Part shown: positions 4,492 to 61,074 of the stretch, one piece after another | Layout: each line of letters begins with the position of its first letter | Numbering within the stretch: the stretch's first letter is position 1 | Source: Candidatus Puniceispirillum sp. | GTDB taxonomy: Bacteria > Pseudomonadota > Alphaproteobacteria > Puniceispirillales > Puniceispirillaceae | Direction: 5' to 3' | Length of the DNA: 64,000 bases | NCBI GenBank assembly: GCA_028383305.1 | Contig: JAOEVD010000001.1 | Coordinates: forward strand, 62,001 to 126,000 | The notes under the pieces: model-generated | Database searches by the model: none | Told to the model about the DNA's origin: nothing | Seen by the model: the letters and a program-made list of their open reading frames with translations, nothing else | Program-made: the position numbers and the translations under genes

Positions 4492-4494
4492 GGT

Positions 4495-7400
4495 ATGCCG
4501 CGCCGCAACGATATCAAATCTATTCTCATTATCGGCGCTGGCCCCATTATTATTGGGCAGGCCTGCGAATTCGACTATTCTGGCGCACAGGCCTGCAAGG
4601 CACTAAAGGCCGATGGCTATCGCATCATTCTGGTCAATTCCAATCCAGCAACGATCATGACTGATCCGGACATGGCCGACGCCACCTATATCGAGCCAAT
4701 CACCCCGGGCACCGTTTCCAAAATCATCGAAACCGAGCGCCCCGACGCATTATTGCCGACAATGGGTGGCCAAACCGCGCTGAATACCGCGCTTTCGCTT
4801 TATAATGATGGCACTTTGGAAAAATACGGCGTTGAAATGATTGGCGCACGAACTGCCTCAATCGAAATGGCCGAAGACCGCGAATTATTTCGTCTGGCGA
4901 TGGAACGGATTGGGCTTGAATGCGCCCGCGCCAGCACGGTCAATAATTTCGCCGATGCACTGGCTGCCCTTGATAAGGTTGGTTTGCCAGCGATTATTCG
5001 CCCATCTTTCACCCTTGGTGGTGAAGGTGGTGGCGTTGCTTATAACCGCGCCGAATTTGAAATCATCGTTGGCAATGGCCTTCGCCTGTCACCAGTGTCA
5101 GAAGTGCTTATCGAAGAATCGCTTCTTGGCTGGAAAGAATTTGAGATGGAGGTTGTGCGCGACACGACCGATAATTGCATCATTATCTGTTCAATCGAAA
5201 ATATTGATCCGATGGGTGTCCATACCGGCGATTCGGTTACGGTTGCACCCGCGCTGACCCTGACCGACAAGGAATATCAGGTGCTTCGTGATGCTTCATT
5301 GGCGGTGCTTCGTGAAATTGGCGTCGATACTGGCGGGTCAAATGTGCAATTTGCCGTTTGCCCAAACACCGGCCGTGTCATTTTAATCGAGATGAACCCG
5401 CGCGTCAGTCGCTCATCAGCGCTTGCCTCAAAAGCAACCGGTTTTCCGATTGCCAAAGTCGCTGCCAAATTGGCGGTTGGATATCGGCTTGACGAGCTGG
5501 TCAATGACATTACCGGCGTCACCCCGGCTAGTTTTGAGCCAACCATTGATTATGTTGTAACCAAAATTCCGCGCTTTACCTTTGAAAAATTTGCCGGTGC
5601 CGAACAGAATCTTTCGACCTCGATGAAGTCGGTTGGCGAGGCCATGGCGGTTGGCCGGTCATTTGAAGAAAGCCTGCAAAAGGCGCTTCGCTCGATGGAA
5701 ATTGGCCTGACAGGTTTGAACAATGTCGATATGCCTGCACCTGATAGCGCGCTTGGCGAAGACCCGCTTCGTGGCTGGCTTGGCGAGCTGGTTCCAAACC
5801 GAATTTTACGCATTGCGATGGCATTGCGAAGCGGCATGTCAATTGCCGAAGTGCATAGCGCAACAAGCTGGGATATCTGGTTTCTGGAACGAATTGCGGC
5901 CATTATTGAGGCTGAAAGCGCCGTTATCGATAATGGCTTGCCAGATGATGCGGTATCGCTTCGCCATCTGAAATCACTTGGCTTTGCCGACAGCCGCCTT
6001 GCCGAGCTTGCCAATCTTGATGATGCCACCGTTCGGGCGATGCGCGTAACCGCAGGGGTCAAACCTGTTTATAAGCGGATTGATACTTGCGCTGCCGAAT
6101 TTGCATCTGATACCGCCTATATGTATTCAACCTACGAAGTCAACGGCCAGGCCGAATGTGAGTCTGATCCAAGTGAGCGGAGAAAAATTGTCATCCTTGG
6201 CGGCGGGCCAAACCGCATTGGTCAGGGAATCGAATTTGACTATTGCTGTGTTCATGCTTGCTATGCGCTGTCCGAGGCGGGCTATGAAACCATCATGATC
6301 AATTGTAACCCGGAAACGGTTTCAACCGATTATGACACGTCCGACCGGCTGTATTTTGAGCCTTTGACCGACGAAGATGTGATTTCGGTTATCAAGCGCG
6401 AGGCCGAAAATGGCGATTTGCGCGGCGTTATTGTTCAGCTTGGTGGCCAAACCCCATTGAAAATCGCCGCCGCCTTGGAAGCCGAAGGCATCCACATCCT
6501 TGGCACCAGCCCGGATGCAATCGACCTTGCCGAAGACCGTGAACGTTTTCAGAAACTCTTACAAAAGCTGGATCTGTTGCAGCCCGAAAACGGCATCGCC
6601 CATTCGGCTGAAGAAGCCCGCGCAATTGTTAACCGTATCGGCTTGCCGGTTGTCATCCGGCCATCCTATGTTCTTGGTGGGCGGGCAATGGAAGTCGTTC
6701 ACCAGGTCACCGATCTTGAACGCTATATGCGTGATGCCGTTGTTGTATCGGGAACCAACCCTGTATTGATTGACCGTTTTCTCAATAATGCCATCGAAGT
6801 TGACGTTGATGCGTTATGCGACGGCACTGACGTCTATATCGGCGGCATCATGGAACATATCGAAGAAGCGGGTATTCATTCTGGCGATTCGGCTTGTTCT
6901 TTACCGCCACAGCATTTGTCTGACGAAATTCTTGCTGAAATCCGCCGCCAAACCTCCGAGCTTGCCTTTGCCTTGAATGTTGTCGGTTTGATGAATATCC
7001 AATTTGCCATCCGCGAAGATAAAATCTATCTTCTTGAGGTGAATCCACGCGGCAGCCGCACGGTGCCGTTTGTGGCGAAAACCACCGGCGTTCCGCTTGC
7101 CAAAATCGCCTCACGCGTGATGGCTGGTGAAAAGCTAGCAAGCCTTAATCTCAAAGATCTTGATTTGCCGCATGTCGCGGTGAAAGAAGCGGTTTTCCCA
7201 TTTGCACGGTTCCCCGGTGTTGATGTGTTCCTTGGCCCTGAAATGAAATCAACGGGCGAGGTCATGGGCATTGACCGCAGCTTTGGCGCGGCATTTGCCA
7301 AAAGTCAGCAAGGTGCCGGTGTTGATTTGCCGCTATCAGGCACTGTCTTTATTTCGGTCAAGGATGAAGACAAACAAGCCTTTGTTGAAATTTGCCAAAA

Positions 7401-45905: not shown

Positions 45906-47015
45906 CTAAAGAAAAGGAAGCAGCACTATTCGGGCTGACCGCGGGCCATCATCCATATGGATTGTTACTGTTTGGCCCTTGTCGATCAGGGCGGTTGACA
46001 CCATACCAACACCGATGTTTTCACCAACGCGGGGTGAATAAACACAAGCGCTGACATAGCCAGCATTTTCCCTATCAAAGCTGATTAAAAGCCGGTCTTC
46101 ATTTGTTATCACAAGGGCGGGGCCATCAATGATGAACCCCATAAACCGGCGGCTGATACCCGCCTTCTTCATGGCGATCAGCGCATCCTTGCCAATAAAA
46201 TCATGCGGCTGGTCGAGCGCGATGAATTTATCCATGCCAAGTTCAAATGGGTTGGTTCTGGAGTCAGTATCAGCACCATAGGAAATCAGGCCGCTCTCAA
46301 TCCGTTCGATGTAATTTGGCGTTCCGGGCCCGATATCATACGGCTTGCCAGCTTCGGCAACACGCACCCACAAATCATCGCCGCGGCTAGAATCACGAAG
46401 ATACAGCTCATAGCCGCCTTGCTTTGACCAGCCAGAGCGCGCCACAACCAGCGGAATGCCATCAAGTTCAGTGACGCGAAATCCAAAATATTTCAGTTCA
46501 CGAACCCAATCACCAAAAAGGTCAGACACAACATCAACTGCCTTTGGCCCCTGAATGGCAAGCGGCGAGACATCTGGCTCATAAACGTCGACATCCAGCC
46601 TTAACGTGCCGGCAACCGCGCTTGCCCATAATTGAATATCGCTATCGGCAATCGACAGCCAGATTTCATCTTCAGCCACTTGCAGCAATACCGGATCATT
46701 GATGATTGCGCCGCTGTGATTGCAGATTGGTACATATTTTCCCTGCCCAATGACCAAACCATCAAGATTGCGCGGGGTCAACAACCGCGCCAATGCCAGC
46801 GCGTCCGGCCCTTTCAGCGCAACCTGCCGCTCAACCGCGACATCCCACATGGCAACACCATTGATCAGCCGATCATACTCAGCCGCCGGATCGCCATAGC
46901 TTGTTGGCATATACATATGATTATAGACACTAGCCGCGGCCAGACCGGCCTTACAGCTCGACTGAAAAAACGGGCTTTTGCGAACCCGCGCACCAATGGA
47001 TAATTGTACCGCCAT
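45906..47015 (-). CDS. DmdA-like (dimethylsulfoniopropionate demethylase / GcvT family) protein
   Basis: A 369 aa tetrahydrofolate-dependent aminomethyltransferase-family protein whose length and sequence pattern match DmdA, the enzyme that moves a methyl group from DMSP to tetrahydrofolate in marine bacteria. Characteristic stretches are VYNHMYMPTSY, MWDVAVERQVALKGPDAL, LLTPRNLDGLVIGQGKYVPIC, ISIADSD-like LSIADSDIQLWA, EPDVSPLAIQGPKA and VVARSGWSKQGGYELYL. AGGGG lies eight bases before the ATG. It follows the threonine-aldolase gene by 120 bp on the same strand. Other GcvT-like demethylases are the alternative; it is not the glycine-cleavage T protein, since gcvH/gcvP are absent. Confidence 0.75.
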   Translation of the reverse strand: MAVQLSIGARVRKSPFFQSSCKAGLAAASVYNHMYMPTSYGDPAAEYDRLINGVAMWDVAVERQVALKGPDALALARLLTPRNLDGLVIGQGKYVPICNHSGAIINDPVLLQVAEDEIWLSIADSDIQLWASAVAGTLRLDVDVYEPDVSPLAIQGPKAVDVVSDLFGDWVRELKYFGFRVTELDGIPLVVARSGWSKQGGYELYLRDSSRGDDLWVRVAEAGKPYDIGPGTPNYIERIESGLISYGADTDSRTNPFELGMDKFIALDQPHDFIGKDALIAMKKAGISRRFMGFIIDGPALVITNEDRLLISFDRENAGYVSACVYSPRVGENIGVGMVSTALIDKGQTVTIHMDDGPRSARIVLLPFL

Positions 47016-47135: not shown

Positions 47136-48185
47136 CTATTGAAAAAAATCGGCGAGTTCAGCAGCAAATTGATCAGCTGCTTTCACATCAATATCAAGAT
47201 GGGTAACAAGCCGGATCACGCGATCACCACCGCCAAGCAAAATACCGCGCGATGCGAGATGCACCCGAAGCGGGTCTGCCGCCCCTTCGGGAACCGTTAT
47301 AAACAACATATTTGTTTCAACCAGATCAGCATCAACTGCGATTGGTCCAATTTTATTCAATTGATCGGCAAGTCGCCGCGCCATGGCATGATCATCGGCA
47401 AGCCGGTCAATATGGTGATCAAGCGCATAAATGCCTGCCGCCGCCAGAATGCCAACCTGGCGCATGCCACCACCAACCAATTTGCGCATCCGGTGTGCCC
47501 GCGCAATAAAATCATGCGCACCAACAAGAACCGATCCTGCCGGTGTGCCAAGTCCCTTTGACAGGCATAAGGACACACTATCAACTGAATCAACAATCTG
47601 TTTGGCAGGCACGCCAAGCTTGACCACGGCATTCATCAGCCTTGCCCCATCAAGATGCACGCCAAGCCCGCTATCTTTGCCAGCTTTGGCAAGGCCGTCA
47701 ATAACCCCAACATCATGTACATGACCAGATATGGTATTTTCAAGACATAGCAAACGGCTAATCGGACAATGCGGATCATCTGGCTTAACGGCCTCGGTGA
47801 TTTGTGATGGTGTCATCAAACCGCGATGGTCGGTTCCAATCGCCTCCATCATCACGCCGCCAAGAACCGAAACCCCACCAGCCTCATAACGATGAACATG
47901 ATAGCAATCACCGACCAGCAATTCATCACCGCGCTGGCAATGCGATAAAAGCGCAACAAGATTAGACTGGGTACCACTCGCAACAAACAGGCCAGCCTGT
48001 TTGCCAAGAAGCGTGGCAACCTTGTCTTGAAGCTCATTAACCGTGGGGTCATCCCCATAAACATCATCACCCACTTCGGCTGTTGCCATGGCTTGGCGCA
48101 TTGCCGCTGTTGGTTTTGTTACAGTGTCGCTTCGAAGATCTATAAATGCCGGTTTGTTATGCAAGGCCACGTCCTGATAATTCAT
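47136..48185 (-). CDS. ltaE: Low-specificity L-threonine aldolase-type PLP enzyme
   Basis: Cleaves beta-hydroxy-alpha-amino acids to glycine and an aldehyde. The 349 aa fold-type I enzyme shows DLRSDTVTKPTAAMRQAM, EVGDDVYGDDPTVNELQ, LFVASGTQSNLVAL, CLENTISGHVHDV, HLDGARLMNA and the PLP lysine K210 in SLCLSKGLGTPAGSVL. Its start overlaps the stop of the ferredoxin-reductase-type gene (ATGA), so it belongs to the same operon as the heterocycle genes. It could simply supply glycine or act on a pathway aldehyde; the natural substrate is unknown. Confidence 0.88.
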   Translation of the reverse strand: MNYQDVALHNKPAFIDLRSDTVTKPTAAMRQAMATAEVGDDVYGDDPTVNELQDKVATLLGKQAGLFVASGTQSNLVALLSHCQRGDELLVGDCYHVHRYEAGGVSVLGGVMMEAIGTDHRGLMTPSQITEAVKPDDPHCPISRLLCLENTISGHVHDVGVIDGLAKAGKDSGLGVHLDGARLMNAVVKLGVPAKQIVDSVDSVSLCLSKGLGTPAGSVLVGAHDFIARAHRMRKLVGGGMRQVGILAAAGIYALDHHIDRLADDHAMARRLADQLNKIGPIAVDADLVETNMLFITVPEGAADPLRVHLASRGILLGGGDRVIRLVTHLDIDVKAADQFAAELADFFQ

Positions 48186-49417
48186 TGTTCATTCCCCGCT
48201 GCAACAAAACCTTTGAGATCAAAATCGCCATTGCCAATATCGTCAGGATCAGGCGACAGTCCAAGATCAAGACATTTTTTGCCAAGCATATAGCCCGCCG
48301 GATCACGAACAGCCTCAACCGCGGCCAATTTTCCATTGTCGCCATAGCTCCAGACGGAAAAACCACCTTCGCGTTTTCCAGATCGCAGTTGATGCCGAAG
48401 ATCGGGCGATGCCAGCGGCACAATACCTGCCGATTGCAGACGAACATCAAATTGTTCCGACCAGAACCACGGCGCTGCTATTGCCGGTTGGGCAAGGCCG
48501 CAAATGGCAGCCGCAGCGCGCGCAGCGGTCATTTGCGCATTATTAACCGATTCGATTCGCAAAGCCGCACCATCAATCAGCGCCACATCACCAATCGCAA
48601 AAATATCCTGAACCGAGCTTTGCATCATTGCGTCAACTAGAATGCCATTACCCGCCTCAATCCCGGCCGACGCTGCCAGATCCAGATCAGGCAGAACGCC
48701 GATCCCGACAAGCAGTAATTCAGCCGCAATCTGGCGACCATCATCAAGCTGCACGCCATTAAAGGCACCGTCCTTTTGCAAAATGTCCTGACAATTTGCG
48801 CCGATATGCAGCCCAACATCATGGCTTTGATGCAATTCGGCAAAAAACGCCGAAATCTGCGGGCTTGCCACCCGCGCCAACAGCCGGTCAGCCATTTCGA
48901 TCACATCAACGCGAAGCCCAAGCTTGGTCAAACTTGCAGCAACCTCCAGCCCGATATAACCGCCGCCAATCACCACCGCATGCTGGCGACCCGAAACCGC
49001 CTTGCGCAAAGCATATGCATCATCAGGATGGCGAAGCACAAACACTCCATCAAGACCCGCCGCCGCCACAAGCTGTCGCGGAACCGCCCCAGTGGCAAGC
49101 ACCAGCTTGTCATAGTTATGCTGACTGTCATCATCGAGATTTAGCTGTTTTTGCAGCGGATCAATCAACACCGCCTCCCGCCCATCAAGCAATTCAATAT
49201 CATGCGCGGCAAACCAGTCGGGTCGCCGTAAAAGAAATTTGGCATCATCTTTACCATCAGCCTGCAAAAAAGCCTTTGATAATGGCGGGCGTTCAAGCGG
49301 CGCATCGACCAGCCGGTCAATGATGCAAATTCGGCCAGCATAACCATTTGCCCGCAATTGTTCAGCGCAGGAAACCCCTGCATGACTGGCACCAACGATA
49401 ATGATTTGATCTGCCAT
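48182..49417 (-). CDS. Ferredoxin reductase-type FAD/NAD(P)H oxidoreductase
   Basis: A 411 aa flavoprotein of the putidaredoxin/rubredoxin-reductase family that transfers electrons between NAD(P)H and a small iron-sulfur protein. FAD site IIIVGASHAGVSCAEQLRANG, LERPPLSKAFL, second nucleotide site AVVIGGGYIGLEVAASLTKLGLRVDVIE, and SVQDIFAIGDVAL are present, with the C-terminal reductase domain (APWFWSEQFDVRLQSAG). It is translationally coupled to the threonine aldolase gene and 26 bp after the HAD gene. In this operon it could exchange electrons with the ferredoxin used by the ring reductase or the Mo hydroxylase; no ferredoxin gene is in the window. Confidence 0.87.
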   Translation of the reverse strand: MADQIIIVGASHAGVSCAEQLRANGYAGRICIIDRLVDAPLERPPLSKAFLQADGKDDAKFLLRRPDWFAAHDIELLDGREAVLIDPLQKQLNLDDDSQHNYDKLVLATGAVPRQLVAAAGLDGVFVLRHPDDAYALRKAVSGRQHAVVIGGGYIGLEVAASLTKLGLRVDVIEMADRLLARVASPQISAFFAELHQSHDVGLHIGANCQDILQKDGAFNGVQLDDGRQIAAELLLVGIGVLPDLDLAASAGIEAGNGILVDAMMQSSVQDIFAIGDVALIDGAALRIESVNNAQMTAARAAAAICGLAQPAIAAPWFWSEQFDVRLQSAGIVPLASPDLRHQLRSGKREGGFSVWSYGDNGKLAAVEAVRDPAGYMLGKKCLDLGLSPDPDDIGNGDFDLKGFVAAGNEQ

Positions 49418-49443: not shown

Positions 49444-50187
49444 TTACCGCAAAGACCGGCGCGCCATTAAGGCAGGTAATTGATCAATCCTGCCAATAAC
49501 ATTCTCGTGATGAATATCTTGATGTGGGCGGTTGTCAACGCTGTCGGCAATACAGATGAAATCACCTGCCTTTGCCGCAATGGCCGCACCATAATCAGCC
49601 ATCGTATCCCCAACCATAATGCTTTCCGCTGGTGTCACACCGGCAATCTGGCAACAGTGCAAAAACCCATGCGGCTCGGGTTTTGACCCAAAGCCACTAT
49701 CCGCACCAACCACCGTACAAAATAAATCCAGAACGCCAATATCCTGCATGTTTCTTTTGGCGCTGCTCTCACTGTCATTGGTCAAAATCGCAAGCTGATA
49801 GCCATCCTTGTGAAGCTGGCGAAGCGGCGCTTCAACCTCGCCTTTTGGCACGGTCTGATTGCGCCCATGCCGATCGACCAATATTTGCACATCCTGCTTA
49901 TAACGATTATCCTGATCAAGCTTGATCATATGGCTTGGCAGCATTTTCTGCCAACAGCTGCGAATATCGGCAAAGGAACCGGCGGCAAATATACCGCGTG
50001 AGTCAATTTGGCCAGCAGCTTCATCAACGCCAATAGCCGCCAGCAATTCAACCCCGCCAATATCGCCATCCCAATCATCGGGAATACGGCTTGCGGTATA
50101 ATGCGCCACAGCCCGTGCCACCGGCAGCCATGTCGCCTCCAGATCAAGGATCACTCCATCTTTATCAAACACGATTAAATCAGTCAT
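49444..50187 (-). CDS. HAD family hydrolase (phosphoglycolate phosphatase-like)
   Basis: A 247 aa haloacid-dehalogenase hydrolase with motif I LIVFDKDGVILDLEATW (two aspartates), motif II LAILTNDSE, a lysine in GSKPEPHGF and motif IV IMVGDTMADYGAA. The start is taken at the ATG at 50187, just before motif I; the frame is open 48 codons upstream without support. It lies 155 bp after the UPF0280 gene and 26 bp before the reductase gene. Substrate unknown; phosphatase activity is expected from the family. Confidence 0.87.
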   Translation of the reverse strand: MTDLIVFDKDGVILDLEATWLPVARAVAHYTASRIPDDWDGDIGGVELLAAIGVDEAAGQIDSRGIFAAGSFADIRSCWQKMLPSHMIKLDQDNRYKQDVQILVDRHGRNQTVPKGEVEAPLRQLHKDGYQLAILTNDSESSAKRNMQDIGVLDLFCTVVGADSGFGSKPEPHGFLHCCQIAGVTPAESIMVGDTMADYGAAIAAKAGDFICIADSVDNRPHQDIHHENVIGRIDQLPALMARRSLR

Positions 50188-50342
50188 CAATATCCACAGC
50201 CCATAAACGGAACTCAATAAATGCGGCCCATAAAATGGGCGGAAAATCTCTTGCCGGCTAGAGTGAACGATTTTGACGCCATGACCAAGCCGCTTTTGCA
50301 AAATACCGCCAGCCCTGCACGCGCCAGTCATTCAATTGCCAA

Positions 50343-51317
50343 TCATTCATTGGCAATGATAAAGCTTCGCCCGCCAAGCCGCGCATAGGCGGTCATGATC
50401 TGCCCGTCATCACACATTTGGCGAGCAAGAGTTGCACCGGCGGCAAGCGCATGATCAATTTCATCGGCGCTTAAAGGGCCAACATCAACCGTGACAAGCC
50501 GGTCTTTTAAATCACTATCTGGCACAAGGCTGGCCGCAGGCTGGCGTATAATTGCCGGTGACGATATGGTAATCGCATTGGCAATCAAACTGGCGGCAAC
50601 ATCGGCAGCCGCCGCGTTTTGCGCCAGCACGGTAACCGAATCTGCAATCCCAAGTGACAGGCTTCGCCCCCGCCAACCGCTTGTCGCAATGCCGCCAATG
50701 CGATCATGGTCATGCAGCCTGATCTGGCCATGAAGGGGCATATGCCCACCACCACCTCCCAAAGCGGCCATCGCAAAATCGCTAAGATGCGTGTCGCGGT
50801 CATCGGCAATGCCGATATCAAAAAAGGCATCCTTGCCGAGATAGAGCGCAATATCACCGCCATTATTGACCGAAGCCCGATCGAGCTGATTGCCCATTGC
50901 CAGCAAAATTTCATCAGCAGCGCTTCCCGCAACGGCAATCATTGGGGTGATGAAATCAGCCTTGTCATAGCGCGGCAAATGCGGGCTGATCGCCGCCACC
51001 ATGCGTTTGGCAACGGGTCCTTTCAGGCGGTTGATGGTGTTGGAGTCGGCGGGCAATCGCAGCATCGTCAATTCATCGACCAACCGATCAAGCAGGCCGC
51101 AAAACGCATCGGCGGCGCAGGCATAGGCGGCAGCGACTTCGGCTTTGTCGCCTTCAGCGGTGATGATTAAATCAATCGGCCCATGTTGAAGATGTAATCG
51201 GTGATCAAGCCAATTTGCCATTGCCCCGCTTGGCATTCGAACCGGTTGCCCTACCACCGCAGGCAGATTCGCCGATAAAGCAGGTGGGCGAGCGGTTGTG
51301 GCGGCTGACGACAGCAT
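50343..51317 (-). CDS. UPF0280 family protein (ApbE superfamily)
   Basis: An uncharacterised member of the superfamily that includes the FMN transferase ApbE. The family core begins near residue 33 (MANWLDHRLHLQHGPIDLIITAEGD), includes the segment MVAAISPHLPRYDKADFITPMIAVAGSAADEIL and a glycine-rich NNGGDIALYL similar to the ApbE nucleotide region, and ends with RLGGRSFIIANE. Up to 32 extra N-terminal residues depend on the start (ATG at 51317, or later ATGs near 51236 and 51221). It starts 3 bp after the ring-reductase stop. Because 6-hydroxynicotinate reductase carries a covalent flavin, a flavin-attachment role is an attractive inference. Confidence 0.85.
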   Translation of the reverse strand: MLSSAATTARPPALSANLPAVVGQPVRMPSGAMANWLDHRLHLQHGPIDLIITAEGDKAEVAAAYACAADAFCGLLDRLVDELTMLRLPADSNTINRLKGPVAKRMVAAISPHLPRYDKADFITPMIAVAGSAADEILLAMGNQLDRASVNNGGDIALYLGKDAFFDIGIADDRDTHLSDFAMAALGGGGGHMPLHGQIRLHDHDRIGGIATSGWRGRSLSLGIADSVTVLAQNAAAADVAASLIANAITISSPAIIRQPAASLVPDSDLKDRLVTVDVGPLSADEIDHALAAGATLARQMCDDGQIMTAYARLGGRSFIIANE

Positions 51318-51320
51318 GGC

Positions 51321-52820
51321 CTATCGCCTTATTGGCCAAGGATTTTGCGGCTGCTGGGAAAATCGCCTTTTGCCAGCAAGATCGTGATCATTTTGTGGCC
51401 CGACCTTGCCAGCCAGGACATCATCAATCGACATGATATGATCAACATGGCCGCCAAGAGCGATATAATCATCTTTACGCATGGTAAATTCGATTGGCGC
51501 AACCAATGCTGGGGTTGGCACATAGCCAAACGCATTTTCGGGAAGGCTTGTCACATCAACCATCAGCGTGATGCCGCCGCCAGGCCAGATAAAGACCGGC
51601 GCCCCGCCGCAGGTTACCCGCGTTAAAGCGTCTTTGACCGAACGTGTTAGCATCACCGGATTTTCGGTTACACCGGCACGAAGCGACCCGCCAGCCCCAC
51701 CCATGAAACTGACCGAGGTCAATGCCGGTTCGCAATTTTCCTCAATCCGTTTGATTGATGGTTGCAAACGCACCGGCATGGCGGTTCCGACCGGCTGTAA
51801 ATCTTGATCAAGTTCGTAATAGGCAAATTGCTCGCCCGTCGTCGAGACCATCAATAAAGACTGTCCGGGCGTGGCGATCTTCGGATCGAATGGCCCAAGA
51901 ATGGCAAGCGGATCGGTTAGATTCGTGCCGCCCCATCCGGTGCCGGGCTCAGCCACCTGAAAATAACGGCCAGGTGTTGACCGGCGACCCAGAATTTTAA
52001 TGCCAGTCGCAGGCCAGCCGATAACTTTTCCTGCCTGATGTTCAGACATCACGCCGGTAATATGGTCATCGACAATGACCACCTCATCGACCAGATTATG
52101 CCATTGTGCGGCAAACATGCCAATTGTTGCCGACCCGCACCCAACCCGCATGCGCGCCTCGACAACGCCATTGATCACTGGCGCTTTACCCGCCTGCAAC
52201 ACAAGGCTTGATCCATCATCAACCTGCAAATCAACCGCGTCACCATTGCAAAGCGCCAATAGGGTGGCACAGGTGACACGGCCTTCTTTTTTACCGCCAC
52301 CGGTTAAATGATGCACGCCGCCCAATGACAGCATCTGTGATCCATATTCACCCGTTGTGACATGGCCAACCGGTTCACCATCAACCCGCACAAGCGCTCG
52401 TTCAGGGCCAATATGCCGGTCAGTGTCGATTTTGACCTTGGCACCGCAATAGCTGAAAATTCCTTCAGACACGACCGTCACCATATCAACATCATCAACA
52501 ATGCTGCTGACAATAAAGGGTGCTGGCTTGTAATCGGGATAGGTTGTGCCCGCCCCAACCGCAGTCACAAACGCATCTTGCGGGGTAATCAGATCACCAT
52601 CCCACGCGTCACTGCTATCAAGAAATGGCACTAATTCACCACCATCATCAACGCGGCGCTGCATCACCATTAATGGGTCAAGCCGGATAAGCTGGCCGCC
52701 CTCATTCGCATAGCGATCACAAGCCCCCGATTTGCCATCGGCGATATAACACATCACTGGACAGGCATCGCAGCGGATTTTCTCTTCAACGCGTTTGTCA
52801 CGACTGGTTTTTGCTGTCAT
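51321..52820 (-). CDS. hnr: 6-hydroxynicotinate reductase-like ring reductase
   Basis: Homologue of Eubacterium barkeri 6-hydroxynicotinate reductase, which uses reduced ferredoxin to reduce 6-hydroxynicotinate to 1,4,5,6-tetrahydro-6-oxonicotinate and contains covalent flavin and Fe-S clusters. The 499 aa form starts at the ATG at 52820 that overlaps the Mo-subunit stop (ATGA); the frame is open further upstream. Near the N-terminus C17, C20, C24 and C34 form a ferredoxin-like Cys set (RCDACPVMC). VGCGSAT (226-232) lies mid-protein. Other stretches: SEGIFSYCGAKVKIDTD, GGGKKEGRVTC and FIWPGGGITLMVDV. Family assignment is firm; the actual ring substrate is not known. Confidence 0.82.
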   Translation of the reverse strand: MTAKTSRDKRVEEKIRCDACPVMCYIADGKSGACDRYANEGGQLIRLDPLMVMQRRVDDGGELVPFLDSSDAWDGDLITPQDAFVTAVGAGTTYPDYKPAPFIVSSIVDDVDMVTVVSEGIFSYCGAKVKIDTDRHIGPERALVRVDGEPVGHVTTGEYGSQMLSLGGVHHLTGGGKKEGRVTCATLLALCNGDAVDLQVDDGSSLVLQAGKAPVINGVVEARMRVGCGSATIGMFAAQWHNLVDEVVIVDDHITGVMSEHQAGKVIGWPATGIKILGRRSTPGRYFQVAEPGTGWGGTNLTDPLAILGPFDPKIATPGQSLLMVSTTGEQFAYYELDQDLQPVGTAMPVRLQPSIKRIEENCEPALTSVSFMGGAGGSLRAGVTENPVMLTRSVKDALTRVTCGGAPVFIWPGGGITLMVDVTSLPENAFGYVPTPALVAPIEFTMRKDDYIALGGHVDHIMSIDDVLAGKVGPQNDHDLAGKRRFSQQPQNPWPIRR

Positions 52821-55576
52821 GACGGCCTGCCTTGGGCAGCCTGCGCTGCCACAACCGCCGCGCAAACTTTATCAGGTGTTGCTGGCAAATCATAAATCGC
52901 GGCACCCGTTGCATGGCGAATGGCGTTCAAAATTGCTGGTGCGGTTGGGATCAAAACATGCTCGCCAAGCCCCTTTGCCCCATAGGGGCCTTCTTCATCG
53001 GCAACTTCAACAATCACATGATCAAATTGCGGCACATCACCAATCGTCGGGATCAAATAATCATGCAGATTTTCAGTGCGGCCGGGTTGATAATCTTCCA
53101 TCAAAGCCATGCCAATGCCCTGCGCAACACCGCCTTCGATCTGACCTTCGACAAGCAAGGGGTTAATCGCCCGCCCGACATCATGCGCTGTTGTGATCTT
53201 ATCAAGCCGCACAAGGCCAAGCGCTGCATCAACCGACAATTCAACCATCTGTGCGCCATAGCCAAACACCGCATAGGGAATGCCTTGCCCCTTTTCATCA
53301 AGCGGGCTGGTTGGTGGATCATAGGTTTCTTCAGCCATAAACACATAGCCATAGTCATTGATCGGCATATCTGCTAATGCAATGCGCAATGTACCGCCAC
53401 CAGCATCAGCCAGCGTCAAGACCGCACCATCAAGCGCGATTTTGGCATTGGCATCAACATTCCCGTGCCGAAGCACCATATCGCGCAAAGCCATGCCCGA
53501 CAGCATTGCCGCCTTGCCCGAAACAAAGGTTTGGCGTGAAGCAGATGTTTTACCGCAATCAGGGGTGAGATCGGTATCACCGCCAAGAATTTGTACATCG
53601 TGAACCGGAACGCCCAACGCATCTGCGGCGATCTGGGTAATCACCGTATTGGCACCTTGGCCAATATCCATGGCGCCCTGATGCAGAACAATTCTGCCAT
53701 CGGCAGTGATGCCCATGCGCATTGTTGACGGGTTTGGCAATGACGTATTGCCGCAGCCATACCAACAGCTGGCAATGCCAACACCCTTGCGCCATGGGTT
53801 GTCATCACGAATTGCGGTCTGGTTAAAACTGGCTGCAGATGCGACAGCGGCATGCCAGCTATCTTCAAGCGCGGCAAAACAATCATCAATGCCAACACCG
53901 CTGTTAAAGACCTGACCGGTTACGGTTGGCACGCCATTTTTCAATGCGTTCAAACGCCGGAAAGCCAATCGGTCTATACCTAGTTTTTCCGCAAGCAAAT
54001 CAAAGGCGCATTCCTGTGCCACCGCTGATTGCGGCACACCAAACCCACGAAACGCGCCTGCTGGCGGTGCATTGGTATGAACTGCAACGCTATTGGCGCG
54101 GTAATCTTTTGTTGCATAGGGGCCGCTAGCATGGATCGGCACACGGTTGGCAACGGTTGGCCCCCAGCTGGCATAAGCGCCAGTGTTAAAAATACCATCA
54201 AACACAAAACCGCTAATCCGACCAGTTTCGTCACAGCCAACAGCAAGCCGGATATCGGAAGGGTGACGCTTGGTCGATGCTCGCATTGATTCGCCACGGC
54301 TATAGCAAATATGCGCTGGACGCCCTAACACCCATGCCGCAAGCGCAACATAGGGCTGAAAAGACACATCCAGCTTTGAGCCAAAGCCGCCGCCACAAGC
54401 CGATGGCACAACCCGAATGGCCTCAAGCTCCATGCCCATAATCTCGGCAAGGCTCTCACGATCCATTTGCGCCGCCTGCGTACAGCCATGAATGACAATC
54501 CGGTTGCCCTCACGGGTGGCATAGCCTGCCTCAGGCTCGATATAGGCATGTTCGATAAAGGGTGTTGTTGTATGAATCTCGACCTTATGCGCCGCCGCCG
54601 CAAGCGCCTGATCGGCGTCACCGGTTTCGACATAGCCACGAACAAGAATATTGCCATCACGATTTGCATGCATCTTGCGTGCGCCATCCGCCATCGCTGA
54701 TGCAGGCGATAGCATCGTTTCATGCGGGGTCCATTTGATTGGAAAATCGGCTTCGTCAAAATGCCTTATCACATCGGCATCACCAACAATCGCTGCCACT
54801 GCATCACCGCGATATAGGGCTGTTGTTTCGGCAAAAACCGGCTGATCGGCAAAGGGCGGAATCACCCCAAAACAATTGCGGCCGGGAATATCGCTGGCAT
54901 CAAGAACTGCCAAAATACCAGGATGGCTTGCCAGAAACTCTGTCTTATCGCCAATTTCAAAACTGCTGTAATGATGCGGGCTGCGGATTACCCTCACCAA
55001 CAGCGCATCTTGCGGCACCGCGTCATCACCATAGATCAGGCTGCCATCGACTTTGGGCTGGCCATCGAGATGCCGGATGGGGCTGCCAACATTCTGCCCT
55101 GCCTGTGGTCGCGGCGATATTTTGGCATCGCCACCAACCGCCAGAACCGCATCAATGATCTTGCTATAGCCGGTACAACGGCACAAAACCCCACCAAGCG
55201 CATCTTCGACATCATGCCGGTTTGGTGCGCGGTTTTCAGCCAATAACGCCGATGCCGCCACCATCATGCCCGGGGTGCAGATACCGCATTGTGCAGCCCC
55301 ATGCGCTAGAAAACTATCTTGTAATTTGGCAATTGTGCCATCAGCATGCAGTCCTTCGATGCTGGTCACTGCGGCACCTTCAACCTGCGCAATTGCTGTC
55401 AGGCAACTGCAAATCGGAGCGCCATCAAGAAGCACGCTACAAGCACCACAATCACCGGCGTTACAGCCAATCTTGGTACCCGGCAAATCCATTTCAGTAC
55501 GCAAAACATCACTCAAGCGGGTGCTGGCGGGAAGCTGGCTGGTGACTGGCTTGCCATTCAAGGTAAAACAGGTCAT
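52817..55576 (-). CDS. Molybdenum hydroxylase, fused [2Fe-2S] and Mo-cofactor subunit (xanthine dehydrogenase family)
   Basis: Hydroxylates a carbon next to a ring nitrogen, or oxidises an aldehyde, with water as oxygen source. This 919 aa chain fuses two normally separate parts. Residues about 1-155 are the iron-sulfur subunit with both clusters (C38, C43, C46, C58; and C97, C100, C132, C134). The rest is the Mo-binding subunit, with GGGFGSKLD, AGAFRGFGVPQ, GAMDIGQGANT and the catalytic glutamate E872 in GAKGLGE. The start at 55576 overlaps the FAD-subunit stop (ATGA), and its stop overlaps the ring-reductase start. Context points to nicotinate-dehydrogenase-type action; the substrate is inferred. 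Confidence 0.88.
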   Translation of the reverse strand: MTCFTLNGKPVTSQLPASTRLSDVLRTEMDLPGTKIGCNAGDCGACSVLLDGAPICSCLTAIAQVEGAAVTSIEGLHADGTIAKLQDSFLAHGAAQCGICTPGMMVAASALLAENRAPNRHDVEDALGGVLCRCTGYSKIIDAVLAVGGDAKISPRPQAGQNVGSPIRHLDGQPKVDGSLIYGDDAVPQDALLVRVIRSPHHYSSFEIGDKTEFLASHPGILAVLDASDIPGRNCFGVIPPFADQPVFAETTALYRGDAVAAIVGDADVIRHFDEADFPIKWTPHETMLSPASAMADGARKMHANRDGNILVRGYVETGDADQALAAAAHKVEIHTTTPFIEHAYIEPEAGYATREGNRIVIHGCTQAAQMDRESLAEIMGMELEAIRVVPSACGGGFGSKLDVSFQPYVALAAWVLGRPAHICYSRGESMRASTKRHPSDIRLAVGCDETGRISGFVFDGIFNTGAYASWGPTVANRVPIHASGPYATKDYRANSVAVHTNAPPAGAFRGFGVPQSAVAQECAFDLLAEKLGIDRLAFRRLNALKNGVPTVTGQVFNSGVGIDDCFAALEDSWHAAVASAASFNQTAIRDDNPWRKGVGIASCWYGCGNTSLPNPSTMRMGITADGRIVLHQGAMDIGQGANTVITQIAADALGVPVHDVQILGGDTDLTPDCGKTSASRQTFVSGKAAMLSGMALRDMVLRHGNVDANAKIALDGAVLTLADAGGGTLRIALADMPINDYGYVFMAEETYDPPTSPLDEKGQGIPYAVFGYGAQMVELSVDAALGLVRLDKITTAHDVGRAINPLLVEGQIEGGVAQGIGMALMEDYQPGRTENLHDYLIPTIGDVPQFDHVIVEVADEEGPYGAKGLGEHVLIPTAPAILNAIRHATGAAIYDLPATPDKVCAAVVAAQAAQGRPS

Positions 55577-56454
55577 GCCGCCACCCCTTTGGCAAAATTC
55601 GATTGCTGTTTGCAAAGCAGGCGGCGCGTAATTTCGCATGATGCCTGCAGCCGATAAGCGGCCGTTGCCCGCACATCATTTATTGGCGAAAGACCGGTGA
55701 AAAGATCTGGCGTAACCCGCGCGCTGGCGGTTGCCAATGCCGTATCACGCAATGCGTCCTCAAGCTGATCCATGCGTTTGGCAACTTCACTACACGCGCC
55801 AATCGACAAGGCCACATCACGAATGATGCCAGCTTCATCAACCGCCAGCCTCAATGCTGCCATGCTGATCGAAATCACCAGATAGGATCGCGCGCCAAGC
55901 TTTAAAAAGCCCGATTGTCCAGCTGTTGACGCTGCCGGTAACCGCAATGCGCTTACCATCTCGCCATCACCAAGCGCGGTTTTGCGATTGCCAAGAATAA
56001 ACGCCGACAACGGCAAATAGCGCAATCCAGACGCACCGGCAATTTCAACCTCGGCATCAAGCGTCAATAAAGGCGGCACGCCATCTGCGGCAGGCGAGGC
56101 GTTGCATAGATTGCCAATAATGGTGGCGCGGTTTTGAATTTGCACCGACCCGACTTCACGCGCGGCGGCCTTTAACCCGTCAAAGGCAGGGGGCACATCA
56201 GCGTCAATCAGCGTTCGCCAGCTGGCAGCCGCGCCAATCCGCCAATAGTCACCGTCAAATGCGACTGTGCTAAGCGCGGCAATTCCCGAAATATCCAAGA
56301 TCGCACCAGTCAATGGCCGATCCTGCAATCGAGGAAACACATCCGTACCACCGGCAAGAATGGTTCTTGGCCCTTTGGCAAGCGTGGCAATGGCTGCCTC
56401 TAGACTGTCGACCCGCACATAATCTGCGGCACCTGCGCCTATTTCGCCTTGCAT
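55573..56454 (-). CDS. FAD subunit of the molybdenum hydroxylase (CoxM/XdhB type)
   Basis: Passes electrons from the Fe-S clusters to the final acceptor. The 293 aa protein has the FAD-binding motifs RTILAGGTDVFPRLQ and VQIQNRATIIGNLCNASPAADGVPPLLTLDAEV and the C-terminal CO-dehydrogenase flavoprotein domain. GGAGAG lies just before the ATG at 56454. Its stop overlaps the start of the fused Fe-S/Mo subunit by 4 nt, so the two form one enzyme. It follows the aldehyde oxidoreductase gene by 52 bp. Confidence 0.9.
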   Translation of the reverse strand: MQGEIGAGAADYVRVDSLEAAIATLAKGPRTILAGGTDVFPRLQDRPLTGAILDISGIAALSTVAFDGDYWRIGAAASWRTLIDADVPPAFDGLKAAAREVGSVQIQNRATIIGNLCNASPAADGVPPLLTLDAEVEIAGASGLRYLPLSAFILGNRKTALGDGEMVSALRLPAASTAGQSGFLKLGARSYLVISISMAALRLAVDEAGIIRDVALSIGACSEVAKRMDQLEDALRDTALATASARVTPDLFTGLSPINDVRATAAYRLQASCEITRRLLCKQQSNFAKGVAA

Positions 56455-56506
56455 AAAACTCTCCGCGCCACAACCTTGCTTTGCATTCTAGACCTCATCC
56501 AAAATC

Positions 56507-58234
56507 TTATCGCCAACGGCTTTGCGCTTCCATAAGATTTTGCATTGCGGCATTCACTTCACGGCTGTAAAGGCGTGCCATTTTACCCGTTGGTGGCAAC
56601 GGCTCATCACAGAAAAATGACGGTAATTCATCATCTTCCTGATCAAAACCTGCGGCCTTGTTAAAGGCGGCTTCTAACCGCAATGTTTCAAAGCCAATGC
56701 CGGTGATAAATTCGGGCGTCACATCGGCGTCAAAGGAATCATTAATCGCATCGGCAATCAGTTTGAGATTATCATCTGTGACCGACCGACCAAACACGCA
56801 TAGCCCAAAGGAATCGGCAACCGCGCTGTTAATTTGCATACGCAGGCTTTCGGCAACTAATTCATCAATGGTTTTGTCATCACATTTAAAAGATGGCGCA
56901 TTGCCAACCGTATGATCAGCACCTTGCGCTGTTAGCATCATCGAAATGCCAGTCACTTCGATAATCCGCGGATCATAGGCACTGATGGCCTGCTGTTTGA
57001 TCACCGGCACCCGCGCAACGTCAAACGCCTTGCCAACCCGCGCCGTTCCCGACGCATAAAGACGGCCACGTTCATTGCCGAGGTGGATATCTTCAAGACA
57101 AGATTGCATAAAGCCAACATCACCAAAAGCGCCAATGCCAGCCTCCATCAAAACACCAATGGTGGCACCAAGCTCGATACTATCAACGCCAAGATCATTT
57201 GCCGTTTCATTCAATCTTGCCACATCATCGGGATCATCAAGTCCACAATTTGTGCCAAGCAAACCAATGGTTTCATATTCCAGCGGCGAAACCAGTTCGC
57301 GCCCCGTATCATCAACATAAACATTGCTGCATTTGATCAAACAGCCAGGCATGCAGGCATGTGATGTATCACCGCCGCGCCCGCCATTTAATTCGCGGAT
57401 AAAATCGCCACCCATGCGCAACGGCTCATCATCGGCACTGGTCAATTGGCCGGATGAAAAATTACGAACCGGCAAAGCACCAAGATGGTTGGTAAGATCA
57501 GCCACCATTGCGGTTCCAGTTGTTTTCAGGCTTTGCACCGCAACCGATTCGTCAAGCTTTTTGCCATAATCCTTGATCGCACCCATCAATTTCTTGCGGT
57601 CATTTACCGGCGGCATCCGATCCTTGTCGATGACCATCGCTTTGACCTTTTTGGCACCCATAACCGCGCCAACACCGCCGCGTGCCGCCAAACGTGACGG
57701 CCGGTTATCCGTATCCGAAAAGGCCACGCCAGCCATCAGGCCAAGATATTCACCAACCGGCCCACAAATCGCCAGTGAGGTTTTCTGACCATAGGTTTCA
57801 TGCAGCTTTTTGGCACAATCGAAATTGCCAAGCCCAAGATAAGGCGTCGCATCATCAAAACTGATCTCGCGATCTTTGGTAATGCGAATAATCACCCAAT
57901 CATCACTCGCACCTTGAAGGGTAATGCCCGAAATTAGCAATTGACCCATCGCAAAACCAAATGTGCCGCCGCTATTTGCCTCTTTAATGCCGCCAGTCAG
58001 TGGGCTTTTACAGCCAACGCTTAGCCGGTTTGCATTCGAAAAATTCGTTCCCGCAAAAGGCCCAGCCGAAAAAATCAGCGGGTTTTCCGGCGACATTGGG
58101 TCGATTGTGGCAATGTTCTGGTCAAGCAGCATCCGCGCAATCAGATAACGTCCAGATTCGGCAATTTCGCGACCGGACAAATCACGGCTGGCGGTTGTTT
58201 TGCTGCCAAGGTCGATAGTGATATATTTGCGCAT
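56507..58234 (-). CDS. Aldehyde:ferredoxin oxidoreductase family (tungsten/molybdenum) enzyme
   Basis: Oxidises aldehydes to acids with two electrons passed to ferredoxin. The 575 aa protein has the N-terminal AOR domain (SAGPFAGTNFSNANRLSVGCKSPLTGG, a pterin-binding region), LAARGGVGAVMGAKKVKAMV, Fe-S cysteines C294, C298 and C302 (ACMPGCLIKC) with C479 (DSFGLCVFG), and LEYETIGLLGTNCGL. Start at the ATG at 58234 after AGGATTTATT; the frame is open 11 codons earlier. It lies between the enamidase and Mo-hydroxylase genes. The aldehyde released by the enamidase is the likely substrate by context (inference); Mo versus W cannot be told. Confidence 0.87.
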   Translation of the reverse strand: MRKYITIDLGSKTTASRDLSGREIAESGRYLIARMLLDQNIATIDPMSPENPLIFSAGPFAGTNFSNANRLSVGCKSPLTGGIKEANSGGTFGFAMGQLLISGITLQGASDDWVIIRITKDREISFDDATPYLGLGNFDCAKKLHETYGQKTSLAICGPVGEYLGLMAGVAFSDTDNRPSRLAARGGVGAVMGAKKVKAMVIDKDRMPPVNDRKKLMGAIKDYGKKLDESVAVQSLKTTGTAMVADLTNHLGALPVRNFSSGQLTSADDEPLRMGGDFIRELNGGRGGDTSHACMPGCLIKCSNVYVDDTGRELVSPLEYETIGLLGTNCGLDDPDDVARLNETANDLGVDSIELGATIGVLMEAGIGAFGDVGFMQSCLEDIHLGNERGRLYASGTARVGKAFDVARVPVIKQQAISAYDPRIIEVTGISMMLTAQGADHTVGNAPSFKCDDKTIDELVAESLRMQINSAVADSFGLCVFGRSVTDDNLKLIADAINDSFDADVTPEFITGIGFETLRLEAAFNKAAGFDQEDDELPSFFCDEPLPPTGKMARLYSREVNAAMQNLMEAQSRWR

Positions 58235-58482
58235 AATAAATCCTGTTTGGCAGTGATGAGGCCTCAAATGATGAGCCTTAATTGAAATCAGATTGTCCGT
58301 GTTAATTCATTTGTATACTAACAATAATACATCTTGTAAACATCCAGCAGCGTCAATGCTTTGCGAACTAATGTCACATGGGCAATTACGTCAAAGCAAA
58401 ATGATGGATGTTTCGCCAGTTTCGGGTTGATAAATGGTCATGTGGCAATTGCCGGCCAAACAATCATATATGCAATAATTAC
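58235..58482 (-). promoter_or_regulatory. 248-bp gap before the AOR gene with TTGTATAC inverted repeat
   Basis: The only sizeable break between the enamidase and AOR genes. It holds TGTAT (58312-58316) and ATACA (58327-58331) as an inverted repeat, with TTGTATAC at 58311-58318, like the TTGTATACAA core of operators bound by FCD-type GntR regulators. On the minus strand TATTAT (complement of 58324-58329) could be a -10, but no good -35 is spaced correctly. No GntR gene is in the window. Confidence 0.35.
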
Positions 58483-59652
58483 CTATTCAATGATTTCGGG
58501 CATATGCGTCGCTGGCGGTGTATTTCGGCTGCGGTTGGTGCGCACAATCCCGTCAATAATTGTCATGCCAACCCCGGGCAAATTGCCTTGATGAATGCTT
58601 TCCAGCATATTGCGCCCGGGCGCGTGCTGGGCAGTATCCATCAGCACAAAATCGGCACTGCGGCCAATTTCGATGATGCCGCAATCAAGATCACGCATGC
58701 GCGCTGTATTGCCGGTGGCAAAACAAAAGGCAATTTCCGGGGGAATGTCACCGAGGCTGGACAGCATGGCAATCATCCGCAAAATACCAAGCGGCTGCAC
58801 TCCTGATCCGGCGGGTGAGTCAGTGCCAAGGATCACGCGTTCGGCCTGTTTGATCTCAAAGGCGGTTCGCATCGCCAACAAACCTGCGCGTTCATTGCCA
58901 TTATGCACAATCTCAATGCCGCGATTACAGCTTTCACAAAGGCAGGTTATCTGGTCATCGGGAAGCGCGGTATGGCCGCCATTGATATGACCAATAATAT
59001 CTGCATCAGCTTCAAGAACCACATCCTTGTCAATCAGCCCTGATCCCGGAATTGACGGACCGCCAGTATGGATTGTTGATTGAATGCCATATTTGCGCGC
59101 CCATTTGACCATCTGCGCGGCGGTTTCGCCAGCCTTAACCGAGCCAAGACCAACCTCGCCAAGCAGCTTGACGCCAGCATCGGCAAGCTCTTTAAAATCA
59201 GATTCGACCATGCCATCTTCAATGACCGGAGCACCTGCCAGCATTTTCACGCCTGATGGCCGGAAATTTTCATACCAACGCTGCGAGGCGATCGCCATCG
59301 CCTTTAATCCAACAATATCTTTTGGCCGTCCAGGGGCGTGAACCTCACCTGCCGAAATCATCGTTGTCACTCCGCCATGAAGGCAGGAATCAATCCAGTT
59401 TAGCTGTTGCTGGCGCGGCGTATAATCGCCAATCACCGGATGAACATGGCTGTCAATCAAACCCGGGGTCAATGTCACCCCATGCGCATACACCTTTACC
59501 GTCGCATTATCCAGATCCATATCCTTGGCATAGCCGATATCGGTAATCCGGCCATCGACCGAGACAACGCAATCACCATCAAGGATGGGCGCTTCCAGCT
59601 TACCCGACAGAATCTGGCCAATATTGGTAATCACAAGTTTTTCTGACGCCAT
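58483..59652 (-). CDS. ena: Enamidase-like amidohydrolase
   Basis: Homologue of E. barkeri enamidase, which hydrolyses 1,4,5,6-tetrahydro-6-oxonicotinate to ammonia and 2-formylglutarate. The 389 aa protein carries the metal set expected for the family: H69 and H71 (DSHVHP), E166 (GEVGLG, the bridging carboxylate position), H195 (IHTGGPSIPGSG), H222 (GHINGGHTA) and D278 (LGTDSPAGSG). Strong likeness extends over GDYTPRQQQLNWIDSCLHGG, PGRPKDIVG and the C-terminal RNTPPA. Start at the ATG at 59652 after AAGAGG. It lies downstream of the MarR gene and upstream of AOR. Confidence 0.85.
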   Translation of the reverse strand: MASEKLVITNIGQILSGKLEAPILDGDCVVSVDGRITDIGYAKDMDLDNATVKVYAHGVTLTPGLIDSHVHPVIGDYTPRQQQLNWIDSCLHGGVTTMISAGEVHAPGRPKDIVGLKAMAIASQRWYENFRPSGVKMLAGAPVIEDGMVESDFKELADAGVKLLGEVGLGSVKAGETAAQMVKWARKYGIQSTIHTGGPSIPGSGLIDKDVVLEADADIIGHINGGHTALPDDQITCLCESCNRGIEIVHNGNERAGLLAMRTAFEIKQAERVILGTDSPAGSGVQPLGILRMIAMLSSLGDIPPEIAFCFATGNTARMRDLDCGIIEIGRSADFVLMDTAQHAPGRNMLESIHQGNLPGVGMTIIDGIVRTNRSRNTPPATHMPEIIE

Positions 59653-59772
59653 GATATTATACCTCTTATCTTTTTTGCGATCATTTGCCAGCGCCGGCAG
59701 CATGAAATCATTATCTATTAGTCAGCAATCATGAGGCACCGGTCAAGGTAGATATTACAATCGCCCTTCGGC

Positions 59773-60222
59773 CTATAATTTATCAAGCAAGGTAAGCAGC
59801 CGCGCCAGCTCACGCTTGGTCAAATTTTCGGTTGTTTCCGTGGTGATGACCCGCGCCTGATCGATCGCCGCTTGAACTTTTGTTTGGCCTTCAAGGCTAA
59901 GCGAGATTTGCAACCGCCGCAGATCAGCACCATCTTGACGCGATTGCACCAGACCCCGATCAATCAGGCGCGAAATCACCCCCTTTGTCGTCGCTGCATC
60001 CATCGCAACAAGGCGACCAAGCTGGTTTTGTGACACTTCCCCAACTTCACGAAGCCGCACCAGAATGGAAAATTGCGTTGGCGTCATATCGGGAAGATGC
60101 CGCGAGAAAATCTCAAGATGACGCTGGCTGGCAAGCCGCAGCTTATAGCCGACCTGGTCTTCAAGCTGATAGTCATTAACCGTTTTCGGAACGGCAAAAT
60201 GGCTGGGATCAAAAACATTCAT
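59773..60222 (-). CDS. MarR family regulator of the heterocycle cluster
   Basis: A 149 aa winged-helix repressor. The core is FSILVRLREVGEVSQNQLGRLVAMDAATTKGVISRLIDRGLV with the wing DGADLRRLQISLSLEGQ. It is the first gene of the minus-strand run, 120 bp upstream of the enamidase gene, and divergent from the AA_synth gene. MarR proteins often bind aromatic acids, so a substrate-responsive switch for the pathway is likely. A 17-bp palindrome in the divergent gap is a candidate operator. Confidence 0.9.
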   Translation of the reverse strand: MNVFDPSHFAVPKTVNDYQLEDQVGYKLRLASQRHLEIFSRHLPDMTPTQFSILVRLREVGEVSQNQLGRLVAMDAATTKGVISRLIDRGLVQSRQDGADLRRLQISLSLEGQTKVQAAIDQARVITTETTENLTKRELARLLTLLDKL

Positions 60223-60486: not shown

Positions 60487-61074
60487 ATGGGATTGGCAAA
60501 AATTCGGAAAATCGTCACAATTGTCGAGGATACGCATGAAGAGGCAGGCCAGACCATTTCGCCGCCAACGCGCCGCGCCGCCGCCATTGCGGTGATCGAA
60601 AATCCTTTTGCTGGCACCTATCAAGATGATCTCGAGATGCTTATGTCAATTGGCGAAGAACTTGGCGGCCTTCTTGGTGAGCGCTGCGTTGCCGCGCTTG
60701 GCATCACCCCGCAACAGGCGCAAAGCTATGGCAAGGCCGCACTTGTTGGCGAAAATGGCGAGCTGGAACATGCCGCAGCCATTTTGCATCCCCGCCTTGG
60801 CAAACCGCTGCGTGCCGCTGTTGAAAAAGGGGCTGCCCTTGTCCCTTCAAACAAGAAACGGGGCGGTATGGGTCATCCCATTGATGTGCCGCTTGGTCAT
60901 AAAGACGCTGCCTATGTCCGATCACATTTCGATGGAATGGAAGTCAGCGTCAATGACGCCCCACGCGCCAATGAAATTCTGGTTATCGTTGCGGTTGCTG
61001 ACTCAGGGCGTCCCTTGCCACGTGTTGGTGGCCTGACGCATGATGAGGCTGAAGGCAAAGACGGGCTGCGCTAA
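60487..61074 (+). CDS. AA_synth family protein (PF06684, DUF1185)
   Basis: A 195 aa protein of the amino acid synthesis family, named without firm biochemical proof. Family features are VTIVEDTHEEAGQTISPPTRRAAAIAVIENPFAGTYQDDLE, VGENGELEHAAAILHPRLGKPLR, KKRGGMGHPIDVPLGHKDAAYVRSHFDGMEVSVNDAPRANEILV and the C-terminal GGLTHDEAEGKDGLR. It starts at the ATG at 60487 and is divergent from the MarR gene, suggesting shared control with the heterocycle run. Its role there is unknown. Confidence 0.85.
   Translation: MGLAKIRKIVTIVEDTHEEAGQTISPPTRRAAAIAVIENPFAGTYQDDLEMLMSIGEELGGLLGERCVAALGITPQQAQSYGKAALVGENGELEHAAAILHPRLGKPLRAAVEKGAALVPSNKKRGGMGHPIDVPLGHKDAAYVRSHFDGMEVSVNDAPRANEILVIVAVADSGRPLPRVGGLTHDEAEGKDGLR

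Follow-up and report, generated by a model that had tools for sequence, protein, structure and literature searches.

Organisation of the locus

We analysed a stretch of 64,000 nucleotides (the window) from a marine SAR116 bacterium, whose genome measures 2.41 Mb and is 84% complete. It contains a minus-strand run of genes encoding a MarR regulator, Ena, AOR, an FAD subunit, a fused Fe-S/Mo subunit, Hnr, a UPF0280 protein, a HAD-type protein, a ferredoxin reductase and a threonine aldolase-like protein. The main features are:

59773..60222 (-): MarR regulator (PF01047)
58483..59703 (-): Ena-like enamidase, start probably at 59652 (phmmer match to 2vun)
56507..58267 (-): AOR, single-subunit (Class I-like) tungsten-type aldehyde oxidoreductase, start probably at ATG 58234 (PF02730 and PF01314)
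55573..56454 (-): FAD subunit of Mo hydroxylase (PF00941, PF03450)
52817..55639 (-): fused [2Fe-2S] and molybdopterin subunit of Mo hydroxylase (PF00111/PF01799/PF02738/PF20256)
51321..52865 (-): Hnr, 6-hydroxynicotinate reductase homologue, start probably at ATG 52820 (assigned from annotated homologues)
50343..51317 (-): UPF0280 protein, ApbE (flavinyltransferase) fold (NF003322 over cut-off)
49444..50331 (-): HAD-type hydrolase (PF00702), present in SAR116 loci only
48182..49417 (-): FAD-dependent NAD(P)H:ferredoxin reductase, HcaD/AndAa type (PF07992 and PF14759)
60487..61074 (+): AA_synth protein (PF06684)

The direct neighbours of the AOR gene are Ena and the FAD subunit, as expected from an earlier note on this DNA, which had placed it between ena and the Mo hydroxylase; position 59652, where that note ended its region, is an internal ATG of Ena (MASEKL...). 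By coordinates, Hnr is followed by UPF0280 after 3 nt, and AOR by the FAD subunit after 52 nt. The interval from Ena to the probable AOR start is longer, at about 250 nt, and two separate transcripts may therefore be made. Outside this run, a GcvT-type protein (45906-47015, minus strand), which scores 391.8 bits against a DMSP demethylase cut-off of 410, is kept beside the cluster in SAR116. Of 106 Hnr loci, 93 encode the PF06684 (AA_synth) protein, frequently as a tandem pair.

The Hnr homologue matched no Pfam or NCBIfam model. It is 96-98% identical to homologues from Candidatus Puniceispirillum and SAR116 MAGs, and the annotation 6-hydroxynicotinate reductase is carried by plasmid homologues that share 58-73% identity with it; the homologue from strain SG-6C is 42% identical to E. 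barkeri Hnr (PMC3511419). An N-terminal CxxCxxxC..C motif is invariant among the homologues. The predicted fold (model pLDDT 80) gave no Foldseek match with E < 0.001 and no VIA match with Z >= 5. A possible flavinylation site (GCGSAT, GTTYPD) was discarded, as 7 of 105 relatives have A or V in place of the T of GSAT. Ena matches E. barkeri enamidase (2vun) over its full length (phmmer E 2e-104, residues 22-404 against 3-385).

Sequence features of AOR

Both AFOR_N (PF02730) and AFOR_C (PF01314) score above cut-off in AOR, which is the sole AFOR_C match found by searching the whole genome and has 1aor as its best PDB match. Its residues T252, E332, Y431 and H452 align with the active-site Thr 243, Glu 313, Tyr 427 and His 448 of PfAOR, the residues named for aldehyde-oxidising WORs (PMC13328260), and are kept in 27 relatives of the subfamily. 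The four [4Fe-4S] cysteines (Cys305, 309, 313 and 490) likewise align with PfAOR and are conserved across the subfamily, in which the cluster spacing is C-x3-C-x3-C in place of C-x2-C-x3-C. The cluster contains no small Fe-S ORF or ferredoxin gene, and no ferredoxin-like or NADH-binding partner subunit for AOR. By its domains, residues, cysteines and single-subunit make-up, AOR is thus predicted to be a Class I AOR/WOR. It shares with the Class I tungsten oxidoreductases PfAOR and BmWOR the AFOR domains, the active-site residues, the single subunit and a presumed ferredoxin acceptor, but differs from them in its cysteine spacing and in forming a distinct subfamily tied to Hnr. Ferredoxin is the acceptor of all four characterised single-subunit WORs (PMC13328260). 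Feasibility in air has been demonstrated for BmWOR, a ferredoxin-dependent enzyme whose host is an obligate aerobe and which is active under air together with its ferredoxin (PMC9424855). A relative at 52% identity is found on Thermus plasmids, beside cmr genes and with no Hnr within the 20 kb read.

AOR recurs with Hnr across genomes

We surveyed 385 alphaproteobacterial genomes, with the AOR subfamily defined by at least 60% identity and genome-wide presence or absence taken from searches. The AOR subfamily is present in 16 of these genomes, the next best AORs reaching only 34% identity, and Hnr homologues are present in 68. All AOR-subfamily genomes except one (G359) also encode Hnr, that is 15 of 16 versus 68 of 385 overall (Fisher p = 1.8e-11), and 53 of the 68 Hnr genomes have no AOR of this subfamily. 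The AOR variant is a minority also in a phylum-wide sample (mostly complete genomes from few families), where AOR was found only in the window's genome and Hnr in 32. At least five different arrangements of AOR with an Hnr cluster were seen, including:

SAR116 loci: Ena-AOR-FAD-XDH-Hnr
L048 and L050: AOR-Hnr, with a 3-nt gap before or after the stop
L056: AOR-FAD-XDH-Hnr
L064, L077 and L092: FAD-AOR facing Hnr
L156 and L157: Ena-AOR at the far end, with a tight Ena-AOR junction
L146: AOR-AA_synth facing Ena

On the Hnr tree, AOR linkage requires five state changes, and Ena is present in all 12 informative loci in which AOR is linked to Hnr. The two genes lie apart in many genomes, and these unlinked AOR loci share no common neighbour that would point to a partner. 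The recurrence across genomes rules out a chance neighbourhood of AOR and Hnr. The comparison thus lends good support to AOR being part of the ring-degradation pathway, a tie that the earlier note had assumed from the one locus, and, given the constant company of Ena, a role for AOR on the Ena product would be the simplest reading.

AOR and Fpr are mutually exclusive in Hnr genomes

The electron donor of E. barkeri Hnr is ferredoxin, as the earlier note also states. An Fpr-type ferredoxin-NADP reductase is encoded in 18 Hnr loci, usually adjoining Hnr, and none of these loci contains AOR. The clusters of Roseobacter and Stappia relatives share the Hnr-UPF0280-AA_synth core with the window, but in them Fpr (once with FdxA) replaces AOR and, mostly, HyuAB replaces Ena. 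The locus with FdxA is L097, where this 7Fe ferredoxin (4454-4861) lies beside Fpr, HyuAB and Hnr.

At the genome level, Fpr occurs in 0 of 15 Hnr genomes with AOR versus 22 of 53 without (p = 0.0014). The pattern holds by family, 0 of 9 AOR families versus 12 of 24 others (p = 0.012), a comparison that covers nine AOR families and Fpr-type reductases and for which independent-pair tests on the Hnr tree are under-powered. The Fpr calls themselves are clean: true Fpr all have E < 1e-66 and remote kin E > 1e-12, with nothing in between. Among the 53 AOR-less Hnr genomes, 31 also have no Fpr, so other donors must exist.

The SAR116 genus carries FdxA (gene at G000:C6:50313-50621). Fpr is absent from the SAR116 genus genomes searched, and two sister genera have it. 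We found no Rnf match over cut-off in SAR116, and a POR-family match (PF01558) in a frame of 1159 aa, which is probably an indolepyruvate-type ferredoxin oxidoreductase and could reduce ferredoxin. The exclusion of Fpr by AOR, together with the presence of FdxA without Fpr in SAR116, is what would be expected if AOR supplies reduced ferredoxin.

Glutarate as the probable end point of the pathway

Two loci of the same family, Granulosicoccaceae (L064 and L092), carry a glutaryl-CoA dehydrogenase (GcdH) gene between AOR and Hnr, in line with the earlier proposal that the pathway ends in glutarate. The L064 protein scores 571 bits against Burkholderia GCDH versus 215 bits against the best-scoring acyl-CoA dehydrogenase that bears another name. 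In SAR116 genomes, a GcdH orthologue (66-67%) is encoded elsewhere, so that the genes of an Azorhizobium-type glutarate pathway, namely clustered hydroxylase, Hnr and ring-opening enzyme plus GcdH in the genome, are all present. According to PMC3511419, the nicotinate route of A. caulinodans runs through THON and glutarate, and in this organism and Bradyrhizobiaceae SG-6C the genes for Hnr and the first three steps are clustered with a transporter and conserved unknown genes; the end point is glutarate, as is probable here. The same text mentions neither an AOR nor another aldehyde enzyme for these strains, in contrast to the operon described here. Glutarate as a bypass, which the earlier note had put forward, was hence known already, as was aerobic ring reduction; nor does the latter depend on AOR, as that note had proposed, given the 53 of 68 Hnr genomes that have none of this subfamily.

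The order of the last steps probably differs from that in the earlier note, in which oxidation to a 1,1-dicarboxylate came before loss of CO2. 2-Formylglutarate is a beta-formyl acid, from which ready loss of CO2 is expected, making glutarate semialdehyde the likelier AOR substrate, and in 1992 Kitts reportedly placed decarboxylation before oxidation in the Azorhizobium pathway. The anaerobic nicotinate fermentation of E. barkeri resembles the pathway considered here in having the hydroxylase, Hnr and Ena and in yielding 2-formylglutarate as the aldehyde. There, as Alhapel is said to have described in 2006, the aldehyde is reduced and then passed to a B12 mutase, whereas here oxidation to glutarate is most likely.

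A possible ferredoxin loop between AOR and Hnr

We propose that the cluster encodes an Azorhizobium-type pathway for nicotinate or a close pyridine. The Mo hydroxylase would form 6-hydroxynicotinate, Hnr would carry out a two-electron ring reduction to THON, and Ena would open THON to ammonia and 2-formylglutarate, which would lose CO2, probably unaided, to give glutarate semialdehyde. AOR would then oxidise glutarate semialdehyde (or 2-formylglutarate) to glutarate, for glutaryl-CoA dehydrogenase, and its two electrons would pass through ferredoxin to re-reduce Hnr, with AOR standing in for the NADPH:ferredoxin reductase of relatives. The AOR and Hnr reactions are both two-electron reactions. 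Such a loop with glutarate as its end point may be the best explanation of the locus; we consider it plausible, with an even chance of being correct, and it has independent comparative support from other genomes. Several findings speak against it: the cluster has no ferredoxin gene, Hnr genomes with neither AOR nor Fpr point to other donors, the reductase at 48182-49417 and the POR-family protein might reduce ferredoxin in SAR116, AOR is often unlinked to Hnr, and G359 encodes AOR but not Hnr. Somewhat more tentatively, the module could be redox-closed in an aerobe, dearomatising the ring without a need for NADPH, in a lineage that dispensed with ferredoxin-NADP reductase. If so, tungsten-type enzymes of an uncharacterised group in ocean-surface aerobes would gain a physiological role, the source of low-potential electrons for dearomatisation of the pyridine ring in aerobes would be explained, and the Azorhizobium pathway would have a candidate enzyme for its aldehyde-oxidising step.

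Alternatively, AOR may make glutarate and deliver its electrons to respiration or to ferredoxin for general purposes, with Hnr fed by NAD(P)H through the reductase at 48182-49417 or another one, so that no loop exists. The gene for this reductase lies within the same tight run as Hnr, Fpr adjoins Hnr in relatives and most Hnr genomes manage without AOR. However, the reductase (for which the HcaD/AndAa models are the best matches, below cut-off) is confined to SAR116 loci, and AOR-Hnr linkage recurs without it; moreover, enzymes of the HcaD/AndAa type usually serve [2Fe-2S] ferredoxins, not FdxA. Together with the mutual exclusion of AOR and Fpr, this makes the separate supply of Hnr by NAD(P)H unlikely, if still a serious possibility.

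It is also conceivable, though improbable, that an N-heterocycle other than nicotinate is degraded and that AOR acts on a different aldehyde, which would be compatible with either redox scheme. Nicotinate as substrate is a reading by homology, and generic aldehyde oxidoreductases give the hydroxylase a higher score than does nicotinate dehydrogenase, which is split in two chains. Against this, NicAB takes the place of the XDH-type hydroxylase in several Hnr loci, Ena matches E. barkeri enamidase from end to end, and the core genes are those described for nicotinate degradation in A. caulinodans and SG-6C (PMC3511419). The fused hydroxylase is probably a nicotinate 6-hydroxylase.

Finally, AOR might be a general aldehyde detoxifier, guarding the cell against aldehydes from this pathway or from other reactions, that lies beside Hnr because both answer to the same inducing substrate, with no redox coupling, as other Class I WORs detoxify (PMC9424855, PMC13328260), AOR is unlinked to Hnr in many genomes and the Thermus plasmid relative has no Hnr nearby, but this is rendered more improbable still by the presence of Hnr in 15 of 16 subfamily genomes and by the tight junctions of AOR with Hnr (L048 and L050) and Ena (L156 and L157).

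Accessory and alternative enzymes in Hnr loci

The AF2 model of the UPF0280 protein has a pLDDT of 90.6, and its only Foldseek matches with E < 0.01 are DUF375 (2o34) and ApbE-family structures. Since E. barkeri Hnr holds a covalent flavin, this ApbE fold makes UPF0280 a candidate flavinyltransferase, and so a possible maturase, of Hnr, which links a previously unassigned ApbE-fold protein to this reductase. In addition, we note a Rieske oxygenase gene in 51 Hnr loci (L032, L048, L055 and others), absent from the window's own group; a [2Fe-2S] ferredoxin gene precedes the Rieske gene in L078, L084, L108 and L174.

Ena and HyuAB never occur in the same Hnr locus (36 and 31 loci, respectively, with HyuAB and Ena kept apart in, for example, L032, L035, L055 and L061; p = 2e-7, uncorrected for kinship), and they are probably alternative ring-opening enzymes. 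HyuA is nearest to the alpha subunit of caprolactamase, with a score below cut-off, so that HyuAB probably opens the lactam ring of THON at the expense of ATP.
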